This document shows, piece by piece, positions 6,922 to 16,228 of a stretch of 41,972 nt of DNA; within the stretch, counting starts at the first letter, position 1; the number at the start of each line of letters is the position of its first letter. A program made the translations under genes and the position numbers. Below the pieces are notes generated by a model that saw only the letters and a program-made list of their open reading frames with translations, was not told where the DNA came from and did not search any database. This stretch comes from Pseudomonadota bacterium (GTDB lineage: Bacteria; Bdellovibrionota_B; Oligoflexia; Oligoflexales; CAIYRB01): positions 1 to 41,972 of the forward strand of contig JAPLFX010000026.1 of the NCBI GenBank assembly GCA_026390445.1, given 5' to 3'.

Positions 6922-8523
6922 CTAAAGCATGCGCATCGGCTTGTCGTGCTTGTATACTCCGACATCGCCTGGCTTGCCCTCGCCGCCATGTGGGTGCTTC
7001 TTCTTCATCGTTGAGAATTTTTTCTCGGACCAGGACACGGGGAATTCAATTTCAATCGTTTTGCCAGTCTCGATTGTGAAGCTGCGCGAGGTATTCTGGC
7101 GCGAGCTGTTCTCGCCAGACGTTACCGAGAGAAACTGATCTAGTTTGTAGTTGCCAGCAAAAAGCGGCATGACTGTGTTGCGCTCGAGATTGATGTCCAG
7201 GGTATGGCCTGAAACTGGAGCGCCGGTGCTGTCGACCCGGACTAAATCGGTGATTTGGCCGGGTCGGTGTTGCGCTATAGGAATCATTTTGGCGTAACCA
7301 ACGGCCAGAGTCTTGTCCCGGACCGTGGCTGGTACCTCGTAGACGATATCGCGCGAACCTTCGATCCCAACCAGAACAGGTGTGTCTTCGTCGATGAATA
7401 AAATGGGAATATCGGTGACACTTTCGATGAATGGGTAGGGCTCTTCGGGGGCATAAAGCGACACACCCTTTTCGCCCAAACAAGAGTTGGCATCGCCCGG
7501 GTGGACTTTGGTACATCCGCTGTCAACGGTTACGCTGCGGGCTTGAAGCTCTTTAGTTTCGCCCTCGACTAACTCAATGTCGACGGATTCAGTCGAGCCG
7601 CTGATCGATATCGTCGCTTCTCCCGGTAGCATCGGGTAGGTTTCGTTGAAACTTAGCCAGTGGCCGTTGTTTATTTCTACCAACCATGGACTTCCCTTGA
7701 TGCGTGCAGGCAAGTCGAGGTCAATGTCTTGCGACGTGGCGACCCGCAACAACGCTGGCTTGATAATGCGTTCTTGACCCTCAGGCATGGCGACCTGCAT
7801 CTTGGTGCCATTGACTTCAATCGCGTAGCGGCCTGGTAGGAGAAACTCCCAGCGACCGAATTGCTGATATTTAGTGGCCGCAATCAGCTCGTCCGCCGGT
7901 GAAATAAAGTAGTCTACTTCTTGGCGATTGCCGGGAAAGTCGGCAACCTGCAGTCCGGAAAGCTTGTAGGATAAGACCTTTGGTTGGGGCGGTCCGGTCA
8001 TGGTGGTGAAGTCGACATGCATGGGGACCATGCCGACGAGTAAATCACGTTTGCCGTCGAGGATATTGAGTTCGTAGCAACCAGAGATCAATTGCCTAGA
8101 CTTGGTGTGGTCGGAACGACTGCACTGGATGGAAAAGCCATCCTTAGCGTCGGGCTTGTGCGGCGGGACAAACTCGACGCGGTGGGCGACGAGGGTCGCA
8201 TGCTGGTCGGGATAGATAATGATCGTTTCACTCGAGCAGTCCGCTAGTACCAGGTAGCTGCCTGGCGCTAGGGGGACATCAGCATTGAAGTGGCCTGCCT
8301 CTTCGGAGACAAACTGCAGCGGCGACTCGCTGGCAATACGGTAGATATCAAAGCTGCCTTCCGAGCGCGGTGCCAGCACTTTGAGATAGCCGACGCGAGC
8401 CTTCGTTTCGCAACCCATGCCGCATAGAACCAGCAGCAGGCTGCCGATGAACCTGGCAAGGCGGTAGTCGTGGTGGGCGCCTCTTGGTGCGCGCTTAAGC
8501 TTGAGCATCATGATTTTAGGCAT
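6922..8523 (-). CDS. Large beta-rich envelope protein, possible lipoprotein
   Basis: I do not recognise a family. The 533-residue product has a charged N-terminus, then a hydrophobic stretch SLLLVLCGMGC at about 28-38. Cys38 could be a lipidation site, but the residue at -3 is Gly, so the lipobox is poor. The rest is rich in short beta-strand-like segments separated by turns. Repeated blocks such as LAPGSYLVLAD, LLPGRYAIEV and FAGNYKL suggest several Ig-like or carboxypeptidase-regulatory-like beta domains. The last residues (KKHPHGGEGKPGD) are low complexity. It is the last gene of a leftward operon with two outer-membrane proteins, which points to a role in the cell envelope. Confidence 0.6.
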   Translation of the reverse strand: MPKIMMLKLKRAPRGAHHDYRLARFIGSLLLVLCGMGCETKARVGYLKVLAPRSEGSFDIYRIASESPLQFVSEEAGHFNADVPLAPGSYLVLADCSSETIIIYPDQHATLVAHRVEFVPPHKPDAKDGFSIQCSRSDHTKSRQLISGCYELNILDGKRDLLVGMVPMHVDFTTMTGPPQPKVLSYKLSGLQVADFPGNRQEVDYFISPADELIAATKYQQFGRWEFLLPGRYAIEVNGTKMQVAMPEGQERIIKPALLRVATSQDIDLDLPARIKGSPWLVEINNGHWLSFNETYPMLPGEATISISGSTESVDIELVEGETKELQARSVTVDSGCTKVHPGDANSCLGEKGVSLYAPEEPYPFIESVTDIPILFIDEDTPVLVGIEGSRDIVYEVPATVRDKTLAVGYAKMIPIAQHRPGQITDLVRVDSTGAPVSGHTLDINLERNTVMPLFAGNYKLDQFLSVTSGENSSRQNTSRSFTIETGKTIEIEFPVSWSEKKFSTMKKKHPHGGEGKPGDVGVYKHDKPMRML

Positions 8524-8550: not shown

Positions 8551-9291
8551 TCAGAATGACAGGCCGACTGAGACCGCGATTTGCCTGGTCGTTGCAACGC
8601 CGTAAGAACCGCAGAGGCGAGGTCCAACCGCCAGGACACCACCGTCCAGCAGCAGGTAGTCAGCACCGACGCCGAAGGCGGCCACAGCCCCACTACGGGC
8701 CGCCGAGTTCTCGCCCGGTAGACCATCAGTCCGACGCAAGGCGGCATGGAGGTAACCAAGCTCACCGCTGGCGACAAGGCGCACCGAGGTTGCTAGGTTG
8801 GTATCGGCGCGAGCCCCAAGGTAGTGCGTTTCCCAGACTCCCCGGTAGGAATGACCATTGACCTGACCGCTTAAGGCAACCGGCGCGTAGCGATAGGTTG
8901 CGGCGATGTTAAACGCCGACTTAATGGGAAGGACCCGGTACCCGACGGCGAAATCGCTCATGCCACTTGCCTTCCAGCTACCGCCGCCTGGGCGACTGGC
9001 CTTGACCCAGCCAAAGCTCGTGGCCAAATAGAGCCTTTGTGTTAGGGCATTGCTTGGCGGGTTGGCAGGCACTCCGCCAGCTTCACTGGCTTCGGTAGCC
9101 TCGGCTGCATCGCCTTCCTTGTTAGGTCCAAAGGCGGGGTCCTCCTCGCCTTTGGGCGAGTCTTTAGCCTCTTGCTGTTCGGCAGCCTCAGGACTTTTAT
9201 CGGAAAGTGCGTCGAGGCCTTTGGCCCAGACAGGCGCGCTTGGGAGTCCGACCATGAGGTAGACGAGCACTAGACGTGCAGTTAGCTTCAT
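8551..9291 (-). CDS. Small outer-membrane beta-barrel protein
   Basis: The 246-residue product has a signal peptide (MKLTARLVLVYLMVGLPSAPVWA). An acidic, Glu/Ala-rich linker (about 25-75) follows, and then alternating-polarity beta strands ending in VSVGLSF. A terminal Phe is the usual assembly signal for BAM-dependent barrels. The barrel part, about 165 residues, fits eight to ten strands of the OmpA/OmpW-like small-barrel type; no specific family is recognised. The frame reaches a GTG at 9306, but the ATG at 9291 is preferred because GTGGAG lies about nine bases upstream and the signal peptide begins there. It is 16 bases after the PorV/FadL-like gene and 27 bases before the lipoprotein candidate. 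Confidence 0.7.
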   Translation of the reverse strand: MKLTARLVLVYLMVGLPSAPVWAKGLDALSDKSPEAAEQQEAKDSPKGEEDPAFGPNKEGDAAEATEASEAGGVPANPPSNALTQRLYLATSFGWVKASRPGGGSWKASGMSDFAVGYRVLPIKSAFNIAATYRYAPVALSGQVNGHSYRGVWETHYLGARADTNLATSVRLVASGELGYLHAALRRTDGLPGENSAARSGAVAAFGVGADYLLLDGGVLAVGPRLCGSYGVATTRQIAVSVGLSF

Positions 9292-9307
9292 CAATGGAGT
9301 CTCCACT

Positions 9308-10444
9308 TTAGATCAGGAGTTTTACCTGTAAGGCGTAGCGGCGGTCGCCAAGATTGGTGTCCTGGCCTGCGATCGTACCCAATTGCTCGGTATAAGTGGC
9401 GAATCGCACGGTTAGTAAAAAGACGTCGAACTGGAACCCTCCAGTGATTTGTCCCTGATGGAGGCCGGTGTCGAATTTGATGATCGATCCGTAGCCCCAT
9501 TCCGCCCCGACGTTGAATTTATTCGAATAGTGGATCGGCTGATTGATCGAGTGGGCGTCGACGGCGGTGAGAAGGTACATGCCATGTGCTTCCCATGGTC
9601 TAAAGCTAAAGCCGACGTTGACCGAGGGCAGCCTGGTGCGTGGAGCTGCTAGCGCCTGCCCACTGACGTTAGTTTTAGTGAAATGGGTGCCGCCCAGGTC
9701 GGTGACACTGAGGCCTAGGGTCGGCTGCATCCGCCGGGTCGGAGTAAATAGTAGACCCACATCTGTCCCCACCCCGTAGCCGCCTTCGACGTAATCGTCC
9801 AGTTTGGGCCCCGCAGTGGCTCCGGTGGTGTCCGTTTTAGATTTCGATAGTGCGTTGATATCATTGATACTGAACCTATGGTTCACGCCCCCTTCGGCGA
9901 CCGCCTTGACACCCGCGCCGATGCTTAGGCGCTCGTCAAAGAAGTTCCGAGCATAGGCGATCGGTAGAATGGCGCGAGGACCAACATCAACATCGACACT
10001 GATTTCGCGGTGAATCGTCAGGTCAGCGCCGACGTCGACGCCGAGGCCGAAACCAAACCCCGGGAACACCAAGTGAGGCGTTAACCCGATGTCAAAGTAG
10101 TTGTTTTTCCCAGTGTTGCTCTGGAGGAAATCCAGCATCTTGTCGGTGTCGCCAGTCGAGCCAGCGACGAGCTTTTGTACGCCTTGGATGGCCGAAATGG
10201 TATTGGTGGAGATGGCCACCTTGGGGTTGATCAGCTCTCCGGACCAGGATTTTAGACGCGCCAATCCCGCAGGATTGTAAAAGAGCGCATTGTAGTCGTC
10301 GGCGACCGCGACATAGGCGTTGCCCATGGCTAGCGGTCGGACACCAAAATGGGTCCATCGCTGCTCACCGGCCTTGGCCGTGGAGGCGACTCCTGGCAGC
10401 AATGCAAAGCAAAAAATGACTCGAGTCCAAGCGGGTTGACCCAT
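9308..10444 (-). CDS. PorV/FadL-like outer-membrane barrel protein
   Basis: The 378-residue product has a signal peptide (MGQPAWTRVIFCFALLPGVASTAKA) and then the segment RPLAMGNAYVAVADDYNAL with FYNPAGLA. This is the N-terminal signature shared by PorV/PorQ, UPF0164 and FadL-type 14-strand barrels, in which an N-terminal segment plugs the pore. The rest is alternating-polarity strands. Terminal LQVKLLI fits an edge strand, although the last residue is Ile and not Phe. Its cargo is unknown; family members transport hydrophobic compounds or act in type 9 secretion. I see no other type 9 gene here. The ATG at 10444 is preferred over the GTG at 10459 because GGAG lies before it. It is the first gene of the operon 10444 to 6922. 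Confidence 0.75.
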   Translation of the reverse strand: MGQPAWTRVIFCFALLPGVASTAKAGEQRWTHFGVRPLAMGNAYVAVADDYNALFYNPAGLARLKSWSGELINPKVAISTNTISAIQGVQKLVAGSTGDTDKMLDFLQSNTGKNNYFDIGLTPHLVFPGFGFGLGVDVGADLTIHREISVDVDVGPRAILPIAYARNFFDERLSIGAGVKAVAEGGVNHRFSINDINALSKSKTDTTGATAGPKLDDYVEGGYGVGTDVGLLFTPTRRMQPTLGLSVTDLGGTHFTKTNVSGQALAAPRTRLPSVNVGFSFRPWEAHGMYLLTAVDAHSINQPIHYSNKFNVGAEWGYGSIIKFDTGLHQGQITGGFQFDVFLLTVRFATYTEQLGTIAGQDTNLGDRRYALQVKLLI

Positions 10445-10635
10445 GAAAACTCTCCACACAAAGCGGCGAAGCGACCGGGCAATCGAACGATTTTAAAAGG
10501 ATGCAGTTGCAAGCGTACCACAGCCCCCAATCTTCACCAACCGATTGCCCTACTTTAACTCTGGTGCTACGATAAATTTTGCTTTTGGTTACGAGGGCTT
10601 CACTAAGAGCTCGGAATAGTATAGCGGTCGGTTTG

Positions 10636-10656: not shown

Positions 10657-11253
10657 ATGTCCAAAGCGGACGTAGCGGCAGAGCGCAAAGATCAAATTGT
10701 GCGCGCGACAGTCGATTGTATTACAAAGTACGGGTATCACAACTTTTCGATGCAGGACGTGGCGCGGACGGCTGGAGTCAGCAAGGGCATCATTCATTAT
10801 TATTTTCTAAATAAAGATGAGTTGATGATGTCTGTGCTGGATAGGGTCGCGGGCGACATTGAGCGCGTGTTGGCCTCAGAAATGAGCTCGATTACCGACG
10901 CTCGGCGCAAGCTTGAGGTGTTCATCGACGTTTGCTTCGATATCGTCCGAAGTACCAAGGAGTACTATCAGGTTAACATGGACTTCTGGACGCAGATCAA
11001 CCAGAAGGAAGAGGTTCGCAAGGTTATTGCCCGTCATTATACAAAGTTTCGCGAGGCGGCAGCTACCGTCATTCGGGCTGGTATTACCGCTCAGGCTTTT
11101 CGTGCTGTTGATCCCTACGAATATGCGTCTTATGTGATTGCAGTGATCGATGGCCTCAGCTTGCAATGGTTGTTCGATGAATCGACCTTTGACTACGACA
11201 GTATCGTGAAAAAGGCGGGTCAACTTCTCGTCGATGGGCTAGTTCCTAGGTAA
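10657..11253 (+). CDS. TetR-family transcriptional regulator
   Basis: The 198-residue product begins with a TetR DNA-binding domain. The helix-turn-helix is FSMQDVARTAGVSKGIIHYYF, followed by the family-typical NKDELMMSVLDRV. The C-terminal ligand domain, with YYQVNMDFWTQ and EYASYVIAVIDGLSLQWL, resembles the BetI-type C-terminal domain (TetR_C_6). The frame extends up to 10579, but the ATG at 10657 is chosen because GGAG lies six bases before it and the domain starts within ten residues. It is 39 bases upstream of the TPR gene in the same direction, so it probably heads the operon with the FadI/FadJ-like proteins. TetR proteins often control fatty-acid genes (FadR, PsrA), which fits these neighbours, but the ligand is not known. 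Confidence 0.9.
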   Translation: MSKADVAAERKDQIVRATVDCITKYGYHNFSMQDVARTAGVSKGIIHYYFLNKDELMMSVLDRVAGDIERVLASEMSSITDARRKLEVFIDVCFDIVRSTKEYYQVNMDFWTQINQKEEVRKVIARHYTKFREAAATVIRAGITAQAFRAVDPYEYASYVIAVIDGLSLQWLFDESTFDYDSIVKKAGQLLVDGLVPR

Positions 11254-11292: not shown

Positions 11293-12399
11293 ATGGCTTT
11301 TCCGCTCCCCTGGGATGTCGACAACGTCCGTAGCATTGTCGCTCAAGTCGACAGTGGTGCAGCGATCAGCAATCAGCTCGCCGCTGATATGCTTGACCTG
11401 TTGGAGCAGCACGAGTGCTGGGGCCCGTTCTTTCGTCTGCTCAAACGAGGACTGGAAGACGGCGCACCAGAGCGTGAACGCAATTACGTGCGCTTGGCCA
11501 GAGTGCAAAATATCTATCTTGAAGATACCTTTGCGGCAGCCGAAACCTGCGCTTCATTGGTGTCCCACCTGCGGCCAGGGTATCTTAAGTTTAGTGAGCA
11601 AATGCTGCCGCATATTATTGAGTTCGAAGACTTTACGGCAGAGGCGACACTGCTATCTGCAATCTGTGATCACTTGGAGATACAGGATGATCATATCGCC
11701 TGTCTCGAGCGATTATGCATGCTCTTCGAAAAGAAGACTCATAACGAAGCCCAGCTCAGCCAGACGTACGAGCGTCTTCTCGAAGTTGACCCGAGAAACG
11801 TTAAGGCGCTGCGCTATTTTAAACTGCTGTTCACTCAAAATAATGAATGGGATCAGGTAGTTGACGCACTGACCAAGCTGCTCTCTGCGGTGCGCCACCC
11901 GCAAGAACTCTACCGTGTGGCGCAGGAGCTAGCCGGGATTTATCTTTACCAATTAGATATGCCTGAAGCCGCTATTGCGGTCTTGGCGGCTCATTGCGAA
12001 GGTAGTCCACTCGACACATCGACCATACTTTATGATGCGCATGAGCGCTTGAATGACTGGCAAGGATGCCTGCAAGTACTTAGGCAATGCCTCTTGAGTG
12101 TTGAGTCCGAAGCTGGGCGAGCCACCTTGCATTTCAAGATGGGTGGCTTGCACATGCTGCTCAGCGACTTCGATCAAGCGCATGAAAATTTCCAAAAGGC
12201 GGCAAAACAACCAGCCTTTCAGCTCGATGCGATCGAAGGCCTCATCAATATTGGTGTCGCCTTGCAGGACTGGGCGATGATTGAGAAGGAGCTAATCCGC
12301 CTGCAGGAGATCATCCTCGATGAGCGCCTGCGTGGTCAGGTGAAGCAGGCCCAAAGCCGACTTCATGATGGGCTAGCACATGCTGCTAAGCGGTCCTGA
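11293..12399 (+). CDS. TPR-like helical repeat protein in the pseudo-FadIJ operon
   Basis: The 368-residue product is almost wholly alpha-helical with degenerate tetratricopeptide repeats. The clearest are around YERLLEVDPRNVKALRYFKLL (about 155-178), AGIYLYQLDMPEAAIAVLA (about 215-233) and FKMGGLHMLLSDFDQAHENFQKAAK (about 280-305). No signal peptide or membrane segment is seen, so it is likely a cytoplasmic scaffold for protein contacts. The gene overlaps the next one by 20 bases, which implies coupled translation and suggests that it works with the thiolase-like and FadJ-like proteins. I cannot name a more specific family. Confidence 0.7.
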   Translation: MAFPLPWDVDNVRSIVAQVDSGAAISNQLAADMLDLLEQHECWGPFFRLLKRGLEDGAPERERNYVRLARVQNIYLEDTFAAAETCASLVSHLRPGYLKFSEQMLPHIIEFEDFTAEATLLSAICDHLEIQDDHIACLERLCMLFEKKTHNEAQLSQTYERLLEVDPRNVKALRYFKLLFTQNNEWDQVVDALTKLLSAVRHPQELYRVAQELAGIYLYQLDMPEAAIAVLAAHCEGSPLDTSTILYDAHERLNDWQGCLQVLRQCLLSVESEAGRATLHFKMGGLHMLLSDFDQAHENFQKAAKQPAFQLDAIEGLINIGVALQDWAMIEKELIRLQEIILDERLRGQVKQAQSRLHDGLAHAAKRS

Positions 12400-13450
12400 C
12401 TATATCCTGCTGCGTCAGGATGGTCCGACGCGTTTCTCTATTGAAAGCCGCAACAGCGTCCTACATCGTGGATTAAACGAATTGCGGCCACATCGTTTCA
12501 GTATGCCCAAACTTGTTGCGAGTGTGGCTCGCCAGCTGGCCTATCGCAGCGCCGAGCCGGTTACTGGTGTATCGGTTCTCATGCCACTTTCCAACCAGGT
12601 TGATGCCGAGGAGATGGCGAGTGCCTTAATTGGGCTGCCCAACGTGGATATCTTTCCGGCACTTATCCCAAATCTTTTTCAGCAGCTAGGTCAAGTCAAG
12701 GGGCGTCGCGTGGTCGTCGTCGTTGGCGATGGCGACCTGCCGCCTGCAGCGCCATTTCTTCGCCTTTCGCATTCGCTAGCGCTGCAGAGCCCTCAGCTGG
12801 AACAACGATTTTGTCAGGAGCTGGTCGCAACCCTTGGCAAGGCACATGGTGAATTGGTGCCCATTGGATTCGAGCGTAGTCGCCTGATCGTCGAGGAACG
12901 GCCTGGTAAAGCTGTACCTCTCCACGTAGCCGAGCCAACGCTAAAGGCACTCGCAAAGTCTTGGCAGTCACTGGCACAACGGCACAGTGGCGAGGTGGCC
13001 CCGCAGCCCCTGTCGGCTCCTTCTGGCTGGGGAATTGGCGGCGCTTTGCTAATTGAAGATCAGGGCCAGAGCAAGCCGCAGACGCCGCTTAGAGCGGCCG
13101 AGTCGTTTGCTTCGCTAAGCGTTCGCATGGCGAACCATGAAGTACAGCTCGATACCGGTCGCATCCTACGTGAGCTGGCGGCAGCCTGGCTTGCGCAGAC
13201 GGCAGACTTTGACGTCTCAAAGTTGCGACGCTTGATCATCAGCGTGCCTTGGATGGCGGCGGCAGCTACGATTGGGAGTGGCTTTGCCATGAAAGGTAGT
13301 CCATTCCCAGCTCTATGCTATCCTGATTTTTTGCATGGGTGGCAGCCGCCGCTGTCGGCGTTTGAACTGCTCTCGCCGTGCGACGGGCCCGCCCTTTTGC
13401 TGCACCTGGGTCGCTACCCAGAAGTGCATATGGCGGCGAAATGGATCTAG
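12380..13450 (+). CDS. Degenerate thiolase-like (FadI-like) protein, probably not catalytic
   Basis: The 356-residue product has no obvious family, but by eye it follows the thiolase fold in order. ILLRQDGPTRF at 10-19 sits where thiolases have the VxGxRTPF start. MASALIGLPNVDIFPAL at 79-95 resembles the segment before the nucleophile. VEERPGKAVPL at 171-181 and SGWGIGGALLIEDQ at 215-228 correspond to the thiolase DE..R and TDGAAALLLMSE regions. LIISVPWMAAAATIG at 285-299 matches the place of the HEAFA motif. The nucleophilic Cys, the HEAFA His and the C-terminal GHPxGxxG are not found. The gene overlaps its FadJ-like neighbour by 10 bases. The alignment is my own reading; if wrong, this is simply an unknown cytoplasmic protein. 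The ATG at 12380 lies within the previous gene. Confidence 0.55.
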   Translation: MLLSGPDYILLRQDGPTRFSIESRNSVLHRGLNELRPHRFSMPKLVASVARQLAYRSAEPVTGVSVLMPLSNQVDAEEMASALIGLPNVDIFPALIPNLFQQLGQVKGRRVVVVVGDGDLPPAAPFLRLSHSLALQSPQLEQRFCQELVATLGKAHGELVPIGFERSRLIVEERPGKAVPLHVAEPTLKALAKSWQSLAQRHSGEVAPQPLSAPSGWGIGGALLIEDQGQSKPQTPLRAAESFASLSVRMANHEVQLDTGRILRELAAAWLAQTADFDVSKLRRLIISVPWMAAAATIGSGFAMKGSPFPALCYPDFLHGWQPPLSAFELLSPCDGPALLLHLGRYPEVHMAAKWI

Positions 13451-15384
13451 CAGTGCAGCGCCATGGTGACTGTGTCGTCATTAGCTTGCGGCCAACGGCG
13501 TGCTTTTATGAAAGTAGGGCCGAGGCTGTGATAGAGGATTTGGGTAAGGTCGCTGAAGAACTGCATCGCCAAACTCGGCTGACGACTAAGGGTGTCATGA
13601 TCCTCCAGCAAGGCGCCGCAGACGATCGGCATATGTCTTGGGCTCAGGAACTAGCATCCACTTGTTTATTCAATGACTTGGTACATCGTATCGATACTTG
13701 GCGCTGGCTATTATCTTTGATTCGTAATTCGCCGGTGCCTTGGGTTTACGCTGCGGCTGGTTCTTGCCAGGGCAGTGCTTGGGAGCTAGCTCTCTCTTGT
13801 CAACGGCGCTATTGGTATAGCTGTCAGGCCAGGGTTGGCTTTCCTGAGATCGACGCAGGTGCATTTCCACCTGGAGGAGTTCTGGAGTCCCTCAACAAGC
13901 GCACGGGTAGAACCCGGGAACGTTGGCAGGCTCAGCCGGTTTTTCGAGCGCCAGAGGCTCTTGCTGACGGTTTGCTTGATTTCTGCTCGGACGCCCAAGA
14001 CTGGATGATACGAGCGTCAAACATGTTCGGCGACATGTTGCGGGTTAGTCCTAGCTCTGGAGTGCGCGAGCTGCGGCGGCAGCGTGGTAGAGATGACCAT
14101 GGCAAGGTCGATCAGCAGTCGAGTCGGATGGCTTTCGAGCAAATTGAAAGCGTCTGGCGTCATGAGCGGGTGGGATCGGCGACAGTGCCCCTCGCTTGGG
14201 ATTACTGCTGGCAGCTGATTAGCGAGCGCGGCAGGCTCAAACAGGCCGGTGATCTTGGTAGGCTGATCTGCCTCATTGCATCACAACATCTTTTGTCTTC
14301 GGGTTACGCAGTTTGGCTGCGGGCCTCGCTAGTCACAACTCGGGGCTCAGAGCCCCTTGCTGATTCCATGCAGGCCCTGCCGCCGGTGGTCATCGACCTC
14401 AATACGGTGGCTCCGCCGACTGCGGTGATGATGCGTTTGCTGCGCGCCTCCGTACCGTTGATTTTTTCGGCCAACGACAGCCGAGACTTGATGATTGCGC
14501 TGAACCTTCTATTTAGCCGCCTGGAGCGTTCGATCGGACTGGCCAAAGCCTATGACCTTTGGGAACATCACGTGACTTGGTATATTGGGCCTTCAGTCCC
14601 CGCTATACATCCTGTCCTGCGCTGGACTATTGACGATGCTTTCCATGTTCTCGTTGGACAGGATGAATGGCGCTTCTTACGTATTGATGGCAATGCCGGA
14701 TCGGCTGCCGCCGGCGCCATGGAGTGGGCGGAGCCGTCCGACCAAAACCTACCAACTCTGGTGCAAAGCATCCTCTCCCTGACGAGCGACGCGGTCATCC
14801 ATGTTAAGTATAGACCCAAATCATTACCGGCATCGGTCCATATCAGGTCATTGTTTTTTGAAGAAATGCTTCATATCAGTCGCCATGCCGACGGCGACCT
14901 TAGTTTGATTGTGAGTCAGCTGAAAGCGGCCGGTTGGGGTTTTGCCGGCGATGAAGATGGCTGGGACCGTTTCTTGCGCATGCGGCTTGACGCCTACCGC
15001 TATGATGCCGAGGCGACCCGCCTTGGAGAACGATCGATTGCTCGTGGCCACTGGGAGATGGGTGGATGGAAGCAAGCCAAGGCTGCCGCGAAGCGAGCCG
15101 CGGCGATGGATACAAGGTGGAACACGACGGCGCTTAGCCAGCATATGGCGTTGTTTCTCGGGCTTCTTGCCGAACTTTTAGCGAGAAGTCAGCGGGTAGC
15201 TCAGCCCGAGGCTGCCGATTATCTTTGCAAACTAGCGCTCGGTATGCCGATCACTTTGGGCAGCCCGTTGACCTTTCTGCGCCAGCGAGGCAGAAGGCGG
15301 GTAGAGCATTATGCTGCGGTCCATTGGCCGAGGTTGCCTTTTACTGAAAGTATCACTGGAAGAATCGATGGAACTTCAGTCTAG
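13441..15384 (+). CDS. Degenerate FadJ/FadB-like multifunctional beta-oxidation protein
   Basis: The 647-residue product has the length and order of FadJ (about 700). The N-terminal crotonase fold is visible: GSCQGSAWELALSC at 107-120 and VGFPEIDAGAFPPGG at 132-146 match the GGGxEL and PEIxLGxxPGxGG motifs. Both hydratase glutamates are kept (Glu115, Glu136), although one base of spacing differs and an oxyanion Gly appears replaced by Ser112. The GxGxxG nucleotide motif of hydroxyacyl-CoA dehydrogenase is absent, but VIDLNTVAPPTAV lies where FadJ has its ASNTSSLPI segment. The C-terminus LALGMPITLGSPLTFLRQRG at about 598-617 matches the FadJ GxGFPPFLGGPFRYID end. The ATG at 13441 overlaps the preceding stop; a GTG at 13378 is possible. 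It is probably a pseudoenzyme or a hydratase of altered activity. Confidence 0.65.
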   Translation: MDLAVQRHGDCVVISLRPTACFYESRAEAVIEDLGKVAEELHRQTRLTTKGVMILQQGAADDRHMSWAQELASTCLFNDLVHRIDTWRWLLSLIRNSPVPWVYAAAGSCQGSAWELALSCQRRYWYSCQARVGFPEIDAGAFPPGGVLESLNKRTGRTRERWQAQPVFRAPEALADGLLDFCSDAQDWMIRASNMFGDMLRVSPSSGVRELRRQRGRDDHGKVDQQSSRMAFEQIESVWRHERVGSATVPLAWDYCWQLISERGRLKQAGDLGRLICLIASQHLLSSGYAVWLRASLVTTRGSEPLADSMQALPPVVIDLNTVAPPTAVMMRLLRASVPLIFSANDSRDLMIALNLLFSRLERSIGLAKAYDLWEHHVTWYIGPSVPAIHPVLRWTIDDAFHVLVGQDEWRFLRIDGNAGSAAAGAMEWAEPSDQNLPTLVQSILSLTSDAVIHVKYRPKSLPASVHIRSLFFEEMLHISRHADGDLSLIVSQLKAAGWGFAGDEDGWDRFLRMRLDAYRYDAEATRLGERSIARGHWEMGGWKQAKAAAKRAAAMDTRWNTTALSQHMALFLGLLAELLARSQRVAQPEAADYLCKLALGMPITLGSPLTFLRQRGRRRVEHYAAVHWPRLPFTESITGRIDGTSV

Positions 15385-16228
15385 CCCACCCATGCCGGGA
15401 TTTCGCCAGCGACTTAAAGAACACATCGCCACGGTTGGCACCAGCCTGTGCGTTGGGGTCGATCCGCACATGGCCAAGCTACCAAGATTTTTTGCGAGAT
15501 TTCTTGAGACCGAGGGTGCGGCAGCATTTTTGACGCGTTTTTCTCAGTGTCTTATTGAAGCCAGCGTCGGTCAGGTGGCGGCTATCAAATTTCAAAGCGC
15601 ATTTTTTGAGGCACATGGAGCGCCCGGCTTCTCAGCGCTGGAGGCGGCGATAGCACAGGCTAATGCCAGTGGACTCATCACGATCCTGGATGCCAAGCGT
15701 GGCGATATCGCTTCCACCATGACAGCTTATGGGCAAATGGCCTTTGCGGCCCTGGGGGCGGATGCGCTGACTGTCATGCCATATATGGGGATGGATACGA
15801 TTGAGCCTTTGGTCCCTTGGCTGGCTCTTGGCCGAGGGATCTACATTGTCTGGGTAAGTTCCAATCCCAGCGGAGGTTTAATTCAAGATGCGGCGGCTGA
15901 GCCGCTCCTTGAGGCACTGGTTCAATATTGCTCTGATGCGTCAGTCATGGATGGACTTGGACTTGTGCTTGGAGCGACCAAGGTCGAACAACTCCCAAGC
16001 CTACTGCTCGAACGCATCCAGTGTACTTGTCTACTCATGCCTGGGCTTGGAGCTCAGGGCGGGACTTTGACGCCCAGAATACAGCGTCTTATCCGCACTG
16101 AGGGGACGGCGTTGTTGCCACAGTCGCGCTCGATCAGCACTTTTGAAGGTATTACGGGCAGCTGGTCGCAGTATCAAGATCTTGTCGCGCAACGCGTTCG
16201 CTCGGCAGCTCTGCAGTTGCGCTTGTAG
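15368..16228 (+). CDS. pyrF: Orotidine 5'-phosphate decarboxylase (class 2)
   Basis: The 286-residue product catalyses decarboxylation of OMP to UMP, the last step of pyrimidine nucleotide synthesis. The family signature is LCVGVDPH near residue 27-34 and the catalytic LDAKRGDIAST at about 106-116, with the Lys and the two Asp of the D-x-K-x-x-D motif. The length and PYMGMDTIEP segment fit the longer class 2 enzymes, as in mycobacteria and myxobacteria, and not the 230-residue E. coli type. The frame extends to 15311, but the ATG at 15368 places the start 16 bases inside the FadJ-like gene with GGAAG before it. It ends the operon that begins with the TetR gene and is seven bases from the stop of the convergent TPR gene. 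Confidence 0.93.
   Translation: MELQSSPPMPGFRQRLKEHIATVGTSLCVGVDPHMAKLPRFFARFLETEGAAAFLTRFSQCLIEASVGQVAAIKFQSAFFEAHGAPGFSALEAAIAQANASGLITILDAKRGDIASTMTAYGQMAFAALGADALTVMPYMGMDTIEPLVPWLALGRGIYIVWVSSNPSGGLIQDAAAEPLLEALVQYCSDASVMDGLGLVLGATKVEQLPSLLLERIQCTCLLMPGLGAQGGTLTPRIQRLIRTEGTALLPQSRSISTFEGITGSWSQYQDLVAQRVRSAALQLRL

Follow-up and report, generated by a model that had tools for sequence, protein, structure and literature searches.

Do two overlapping genes that stand in the order of a fadI-fadJ pair, the second of which encodes a FadJ-like protein lacking key catalytic residues, still form a working unit, and if so, what might that unit do? The question is raised by a stretch of DNA from a bacterium of the order Oligoflexales (contig C89 of genome G000, 4.17 Mb in 269 contigs), analysed here over its whole length of 41,972 nucleotides and referred to as the window. 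Both genes, termed mid and C0, had been singled out in a sequence-only reading as thiolase-like and FadJ-like, and their open reading frames, order and overlaps were found as described there. We consider the chances even that mid and C0 are a maintained, order-specific pair, a non-catalytic descendant of a FadI-FadJ complex that binds acyl-CoA or partner proteins. The features on which this proposal turns are the following.

12380..13450, + strand: mid, 356 amino acids, in the FadI position, no fold assigned (placed as an open reading frame; no thiolase match)
13337..13348, + strand: conserved GWQP motif of mid (G320 in 20/20 rows of alignment A1)
13441..15384, + strand: C0, 647 amino acids, divergent full-length homologue of FadJ, the trifunctional enzyme alpha-subunit (hhalign against 44 FadJ)
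13783..13785, + strand: hydratase Glu1 codon of C0, E115 (alignment with homologues and FadJ)
13846..13848, + strand: hydratase Glu2 codon of C0, E136 (alignment with homologues and FadJ)
14413..14418, + strand: Pro-Pro of C0 in place of the FadJ GxGxxG nucleotide loop (hhalign register)

By profile comparison, C0 is a divergent full-length FadJ homologue, as the sequence-only reading had held. A profile of 28 C0 proteins aligned with one of 44 FadJ proteins of the same phylum over 582 columns in local mode (hhalign probability 98.6%, E = 9.2e-16) and over 608 columns in global mode (E = 3.5e-24). Control profiles of C0 (one reversed, five shuffled) reached probabilities of at most 0.33% against 20 FadJ. 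Scored with an independent profile aligner of our own, C0 reached Z 8.5 against FadJ and 3.4 against single-domain HCDH, with values of -0.4 against DnaK and -0.7 against FadI; the collinear ECH and HCDH architecture of FadJ is found in C0 on the strength of the global hhalign alignment and the Z of 8.5. In hhalign, the C-terminal half of C0 alone had a probability of just 1.7% (E = 0.029), but its score of 25.9 lay above that of all 100 column shuffles (maximum 21.75), with 276 collinear columns aligned as against at most 75 in the shuffles. Like FadJ/FadB, HADHA and the alpha-subunit of MtTFE, with which it is collinear over nearly its full length, C0 has a crotonase block with a Glu pair and an HCDH_C-like end (LGMPITLGSPLTFLRQRG), which hhalign placed on the FadJ motif LGFPPF.GGP.

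Searches with single C0 sequences detected the crotonase part only (ECH_1, E = 1e-4, below the Pfam cut-off; crotonases in PDB, E = 1.6e-4), and the FadJ equivalog cut-offs of NCBIfam were missed by far (TIGR02440, 18.0 bits against 968.45; NF008363, 21.8 against 869). As none of the genuine FadJ of the phylum exceeds the TIGR02440 cut-off either (0/58 genomes), failing it is weak evidence. Two C0 truncated at contig ends (L051 and L039) were excluded from alignment A3, which holds 26 of the 28. AlphaFold gave a mean pLDDT of 33.7 for C0 and 33.3 for mid, each from the window row plus one locus (L035, 94% identical in C0 and 95% in mid); L035 was also the only relative found in a scan of named genomes. 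Exact peptide patterns revealed no relative of C0 in viral contigs.

Within this FadJ-like frame, the catalytic sites of C0 are altered to different degrees. Both hydratase glutamates are retained in the window protein, at positions 115 and 136 as had been read. Among the 28 homologues the Glu1 column holds Glu in 21 and Asp in seven, and the Glu2 column Glu in 23, Asp in two and neither in three (one of them an alignment gap); both columns are Glu in 44/44 FadJ. Their spacing of 21, which had been regarded as unusual, does not set C0 apart, since a spacing of 22 is seen in the reference FadJ of the same genome and in the enzyme of M. tuberculosis (Glu119/Glu141; PMC11301753). That source also names the two hydratase Glu and the HCDH His as catalytic (PMC11301753). 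The HCDH motif H[FY]FxP, with a His in 44/44 FadJ, occurs in 0/28 C0. Two further sites were compared, the oxyanion-hole Gly and the nucleotide loop. At the former (GGG before Glu1; residue E-3) Gly is found in 0/28 C0 as opposed to 43/44 FadJ, the remaining one having a gap. At the latter, GxGxMG is kept in 44/44 FadJ while C0 has Pro-Pro (P in 24/28 and 27/28), which agrees with the loss of the GxGxxG site reported from the sequence alone. A strict GxGxxG string is present in four of the 28 homologues, always as GWGFAG and in the C-terminal region. The check across homologues proposed earlier thus gave a uniform answer: dehydrogenase His motif, nucleotide loop and oxyanion Gly are gone in 28/28 C0. 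Judged from these alignments, the dehydrogenase site of C0 is lost and its hydratase activity is probably lost as well. Lacking all three elements, C0 differs from FadJ/FadB, HADHA and MtTFE alpha, as it does in length (647 against about 720 amino acids) and in scoring far below their curated cut-offs.

The identity of mid is less clear. Its place directly 5' of C0, which it overlaps, is that of FadI in the genuine FadI-FadJ pair on contig C217 of the same genome. The explanation that comes closest to the proposed one, and to which we give slightly less than an even chance, is that mid is unrelated to thiolases and has been joined to a degenerate FadJ, so that no pseudo-trifunctional complex exists. 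Much of what we found on mid fits this explanation. Window mid matched no Pfam family, and the weak Pfam matches obtained with the 20 proteins of A1, the main mid profile, included no thiolase; NCBIfam, PHROGs and PADLOC gave no match to mid, and PDB no thiolase match. The tests comprised local and global hhalign, low-threshold realignment, separate N- and C-terminal parts, HMMER --max in both directions, PDB, and our own aligner with shuffles, and used profiles at the level of genus and family and of the long, f8 and f6 subfamilies. In hhalign the probability was at most 0.63% against FadI and thiolase sets and at most 2.3% against FabH. A1 contains 20 of 26 rows, with L046, L051, L054, L055, L056 and L059 excluded for poor alignment; with all 26 rows the thiolase result was no better. 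Among the 20 aligned sequences the best Cys column reached 6/20 and the best His column 9/20, whereas two Cys and one His are invariant in 32/32 thiolases of the comparison set. Mid is also shorter than FadI and other thiolase beta-subunits (284-358 amino acids in 26 open reading frames, against about 440). The assignment of the first protein as thiolase-like was therefore not borne out by Pfam, NCBIfam, PDB, hhalign or a conserved Cys or His column, and of the expected profile matches, that of C0 to FadJ was obtained and that of mid to thiolase was not.

Some results nevertheless run against an unrelated mid. With the genus-level mid profile, our aligner was run against 27 unrelated families with each of three parameter sets. 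FabH came out on top every time (Z 4.0, 3.15 and 3.15), and FadI third, third and ninth (Z 2.76, 2.35 and 0.83); with 60 shuffles FadI reached Z 3.51. In an HMMER --max search with the FadI model, the best match outside thiolases and FabH was the mid of L039 (E = 0.25). The TetR control, however, reached Z 3.03 and 2.67 against the genus-level profile in two parameter sets, the FabH and FadI values dropped to between -0.8 and 1.8 with two broader mid profiles, and the single thiolase set scored around zero (-0.3 to 0.6). Because the best FabH and FadI results are short local alignments (40 and 56 columns) with no single register throughout, and weaken with broader mid profiles, these signals are suggestive only: they hint at a relation of mid to thiolases but do not amount to proof. 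The last 40 residues of mid, which contain GW[QH]P and end as strand-turn-strand, resemble the GHP and hairpin of thiolases by eye only, catalytic residues being absent, and the position and overlap of mid mimic fadI-fadJ. The case for thiolase descent of mid draws on gene order, protein size, weak profile signals and the lack of a better match, and the descent is not established. A fuller version of the proposal appears rather unlikely, namely that mid is a thiolase-fold beta-subunit without an active site and that mid-C0 is a full pseudo-trifunctional complex of about 19 genera, which would sense acyl-CoA or act as a scaffold without catalysis and so couple FadL-like lipid uptake to a class-wide TetR regulator.

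C0 might, alternatively, still be an enzyme with an altered crotonase activity (isomerase, hydrolase or lyase acting on CoA or another thioester), its HCDH half serving as scaffold and mid as a new subunit. The acidic residues are in keeping with this explanation, Glu1 being Glu or Asp in 28/28 and Glu2 in 25/28, and so is a block, CxGxxWELAL.C, that is strongly conserved among C0. The complete loss of the E-3 Gly, the Asp in place of Glu1 in seven proteins and the three that have neither residue at Glu2 speak against it, and we regard it as rather unlikely.

In the locus of the pair, TetR and TPR genes lie upstream on the same strand and pyrF lies downstream, as had been noted, and a divergent operon precedes them.

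10657..11253, + strand: TetR-family regulator (Pfam TetR_N, 1.4e-13; TetR_C_6, 1.5e-14)
11293..12399, + strand: TPR-repeat protein (TPR_2, E = 1.1e-4, below cut-off)
15368..16228, + strand: pyrF, orotidine 5'-phosphate decarboxylase (OMPdecase, E = 4.7e-19; ATG start chosen in the analysis)
9308..10459, - strand: FadL/PorV-like outer membrane protein, encoded at the head of the divergent operon (DUF5723, 1.1e-6, above cut-off; conserved neighbour)
8551..9306, - strand: C5, 251 amino acids, divergent operon (no Pfam or NCBIfam family)
6922..8523, - strand: C4, 533 amino acids, divergent operon (no Pfam or NCBIfam family)

With the starts chosen, TPR and mid overlap by 20 nucleotides, mid and C0 by 10, and C0 and pyrF by 17, which suggests that these four genes form a single operon. 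The start of C0 was taken to be the ATG at 13441, as the likely one; the first start in the list of open reading frames is a GTG at 13378. The FadL/PorV-like protein had further matches below cut-off to Toluene_X (2.5e-4) and PorV_fam (NCBIfam, 6.7e-8). C4 and C5 are conserved across much of the order and match no Pfam or NCBIfam family. Downstream, between 16235 and 22385, lie neighbours conserved in part of the order: a TPR protein, a ComEC-like protein, a response regulator, a 428-amino-acid protein without assignment, and DnaK. An lpxC-type gene (cluster C7; 15 open reading frames in the first 28 loci) stands directly 3' of C0 or after pyrF; loci with this gene 3' of C0 include L042, L043, L046, L047, L050 and L054. 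The label comes from a Pfam match of one member (L246, E = 7.8e-95) and from the family profile for the others. Searches of the window for RNA families and tRNAs found none, and searches for defence families (seven proteins) and phage families (three proteins) gave no match.

Among 43 genomes of the order, 36 proved to have C0, as against 0/15 remaining genomes of the class, which were searched with the C-terminal profile. The count was built up from 28 genomes, six that a search with the C-terminal profile added (E = 6e-10 to 8e-4; C0 adjoins known cassette neighbours in all six), and two identified at the TetR locus (G008, E = 2e-5; G029, E = 1e-9; small search set). Together they span about 19 genera (18 plus the genus of G008). 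An open reading frame at the mid position accompanies C0 in 33 of the 36 genomes (26/28 of the first and 7/8 of the later ones); 20 of these frames are linked by the A1 profile, and most others were counted by position. C0 was not found in G009, G010, G012, G017, G028, G034 and G040, and since several of these genomes are incomplete, the absences are provisional. Four of them have closed-up flanks without mid and C0 (TetR-TPR-pyrF-lpxC in G010, TPR-lpxC in G009, TetR-lpxC in G028 and G040); the TPR gene is present in G017 and G034, the further flank not being shown, and no locus was found in G012. In family f11 (G037, G019, G031) C0 is shortened or alone. The C0 of L058 (G019:C1), of about 529 amino acids, is distant from the TetR locus of its genome (L252, G019:C2) and lacks TPR and mid. 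As a genuine FadI-FadJ pair is encoded at C217 of G000, beta-oxidation need not rely on mid-C0. The same genome has a second thiolase-FadJ pair on C47 (L172) and a further FadJ-like protein of 709 amino acids on C8 (L064).

Both genes of the pair are maintained. Against the nearest relative, G002, dN/dS was 0.104 for mid and 0.110 for C0, compared with 0.000 for TetR, 0.033 for TPR, 0.047 for genuine FadI, 0.036 for genuine FadJ and 0.264 for pyrF, values that come from one close pair of genomes (G000 and G002). Mid and C0 are under purifying selection and evolve at two to three times the rate of real FadI and FadJ. The sequence-only reading had spoken of a relic. That mid and C0 are decaying remnants free of selection is very improbable: fast divergence (39.8% identity to G001 in mid and 54.3% in C0) and the short or lone C0 of f11 would fit it, but it is contradicted by the dN/dS of 0.10-0.11 and by reading frames that are open and syntenic in most of the 36 genomes.

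The TetR regulator is conserved far beyond the pair. The window protein shares 58-88% of its residues with the other 22 rows of alignment A5 and 46% with the protein of the remotest locus of the order, and at E 1e-50 an ortholog was found in 54 of 58 genomes of the phylum; this conservation is far above that of mid-C0. The TPR gene is clustered with the cassette in 24 of the first 28 loci (25 open reading frames, one locus having it in two pieces). In the outgroup TetR adjoins a TPR gene in some genomes (L257, L259, L261, L263), and at L253 and L259, the two loci of the outgroup that were tested, it lies beside flagellin, chemoreceptor-like (MCP-signal domain) and MshEN genes. Since TetR-TPR occurs in the outgroup without mid-C0, it is older than the pair or independent of it. 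By this distribution TetR is not dedicated to mid-C0, and the ligand it binds may be something other than a fatty acid. It shares TetR_N and TetR_C_6 with regulators of the BetI/FadR type and scores 93 bits with NCBIfam BetI and 81 bits with FadR, but it lies below both curated cut-offs and, unlike them, is very conserved in the class. Among 52 upstream regions of TetR gathered, 16 were inspected by eye, with no systematic motif search, and no convincing operator palindrome was seen; a promoter-like element is visible in the regions read.

Several of these observations weigh against a non-catalytic, dedicated mid-C0 complex. The Glu pair is retained in most C0, so that some crotonase-type chemistry is possible. 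Mirror-tree analysis gave a partial r of 0.47 for mid and C0, 0.59 for mid and TPR, 0.53 for mid and the FadL-like protein, and 0.60 for C0 and the FadL-like protein; as other pairs correlate as highly or higher, it provides no specific sign of contact between mid and C0. TetR exists in the outgroup without the pair. C0 has no open reading frame at the mid position beside it in G031, G019 and G037 (3/36), and the finding that no mid was recognised in any of the seven C0-free genomes is provisional because divergent mids would evade the profiles.

The proposed non-catalytic pair could work as follows. C0 is a degenerate FadJ descendant whose dehydrogenase site, and probably hydratase activity, are lost, and mid stands in the FadI place beside it. 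We infer that both, perhaps together with the TPR protein, would assemble into a physical complex that works without beta-oxidation catalysis. To bind acyl-CoA or partner proteins, it may use what is left of the CoA cleft of C0 or the former subunit interfaces, and it may serve the divergent operon headed by the FadL-like outer membrane protein. A putative regulatory acyl-CoA binder controlled by TetR is one possible form of such a device.

No account of such a pair was found in a full-text literature search, as judged from titles and the beginnings of abstracts, which is not proof of absence. The proposal points to exact residues and to a set of genomes for testing. Lasting selection and a fixed gene neighbourhood of the altered FadJ copy suggest an old enzyme in a new role. 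If the proposal is true, an alpha-subunit deprived of dehydrogenase and oxyanion residues, yet kept across an order and alongside intact copies in the same genome, would represent a natural case in which an enzyme complex has come to serve in binding or regulation.

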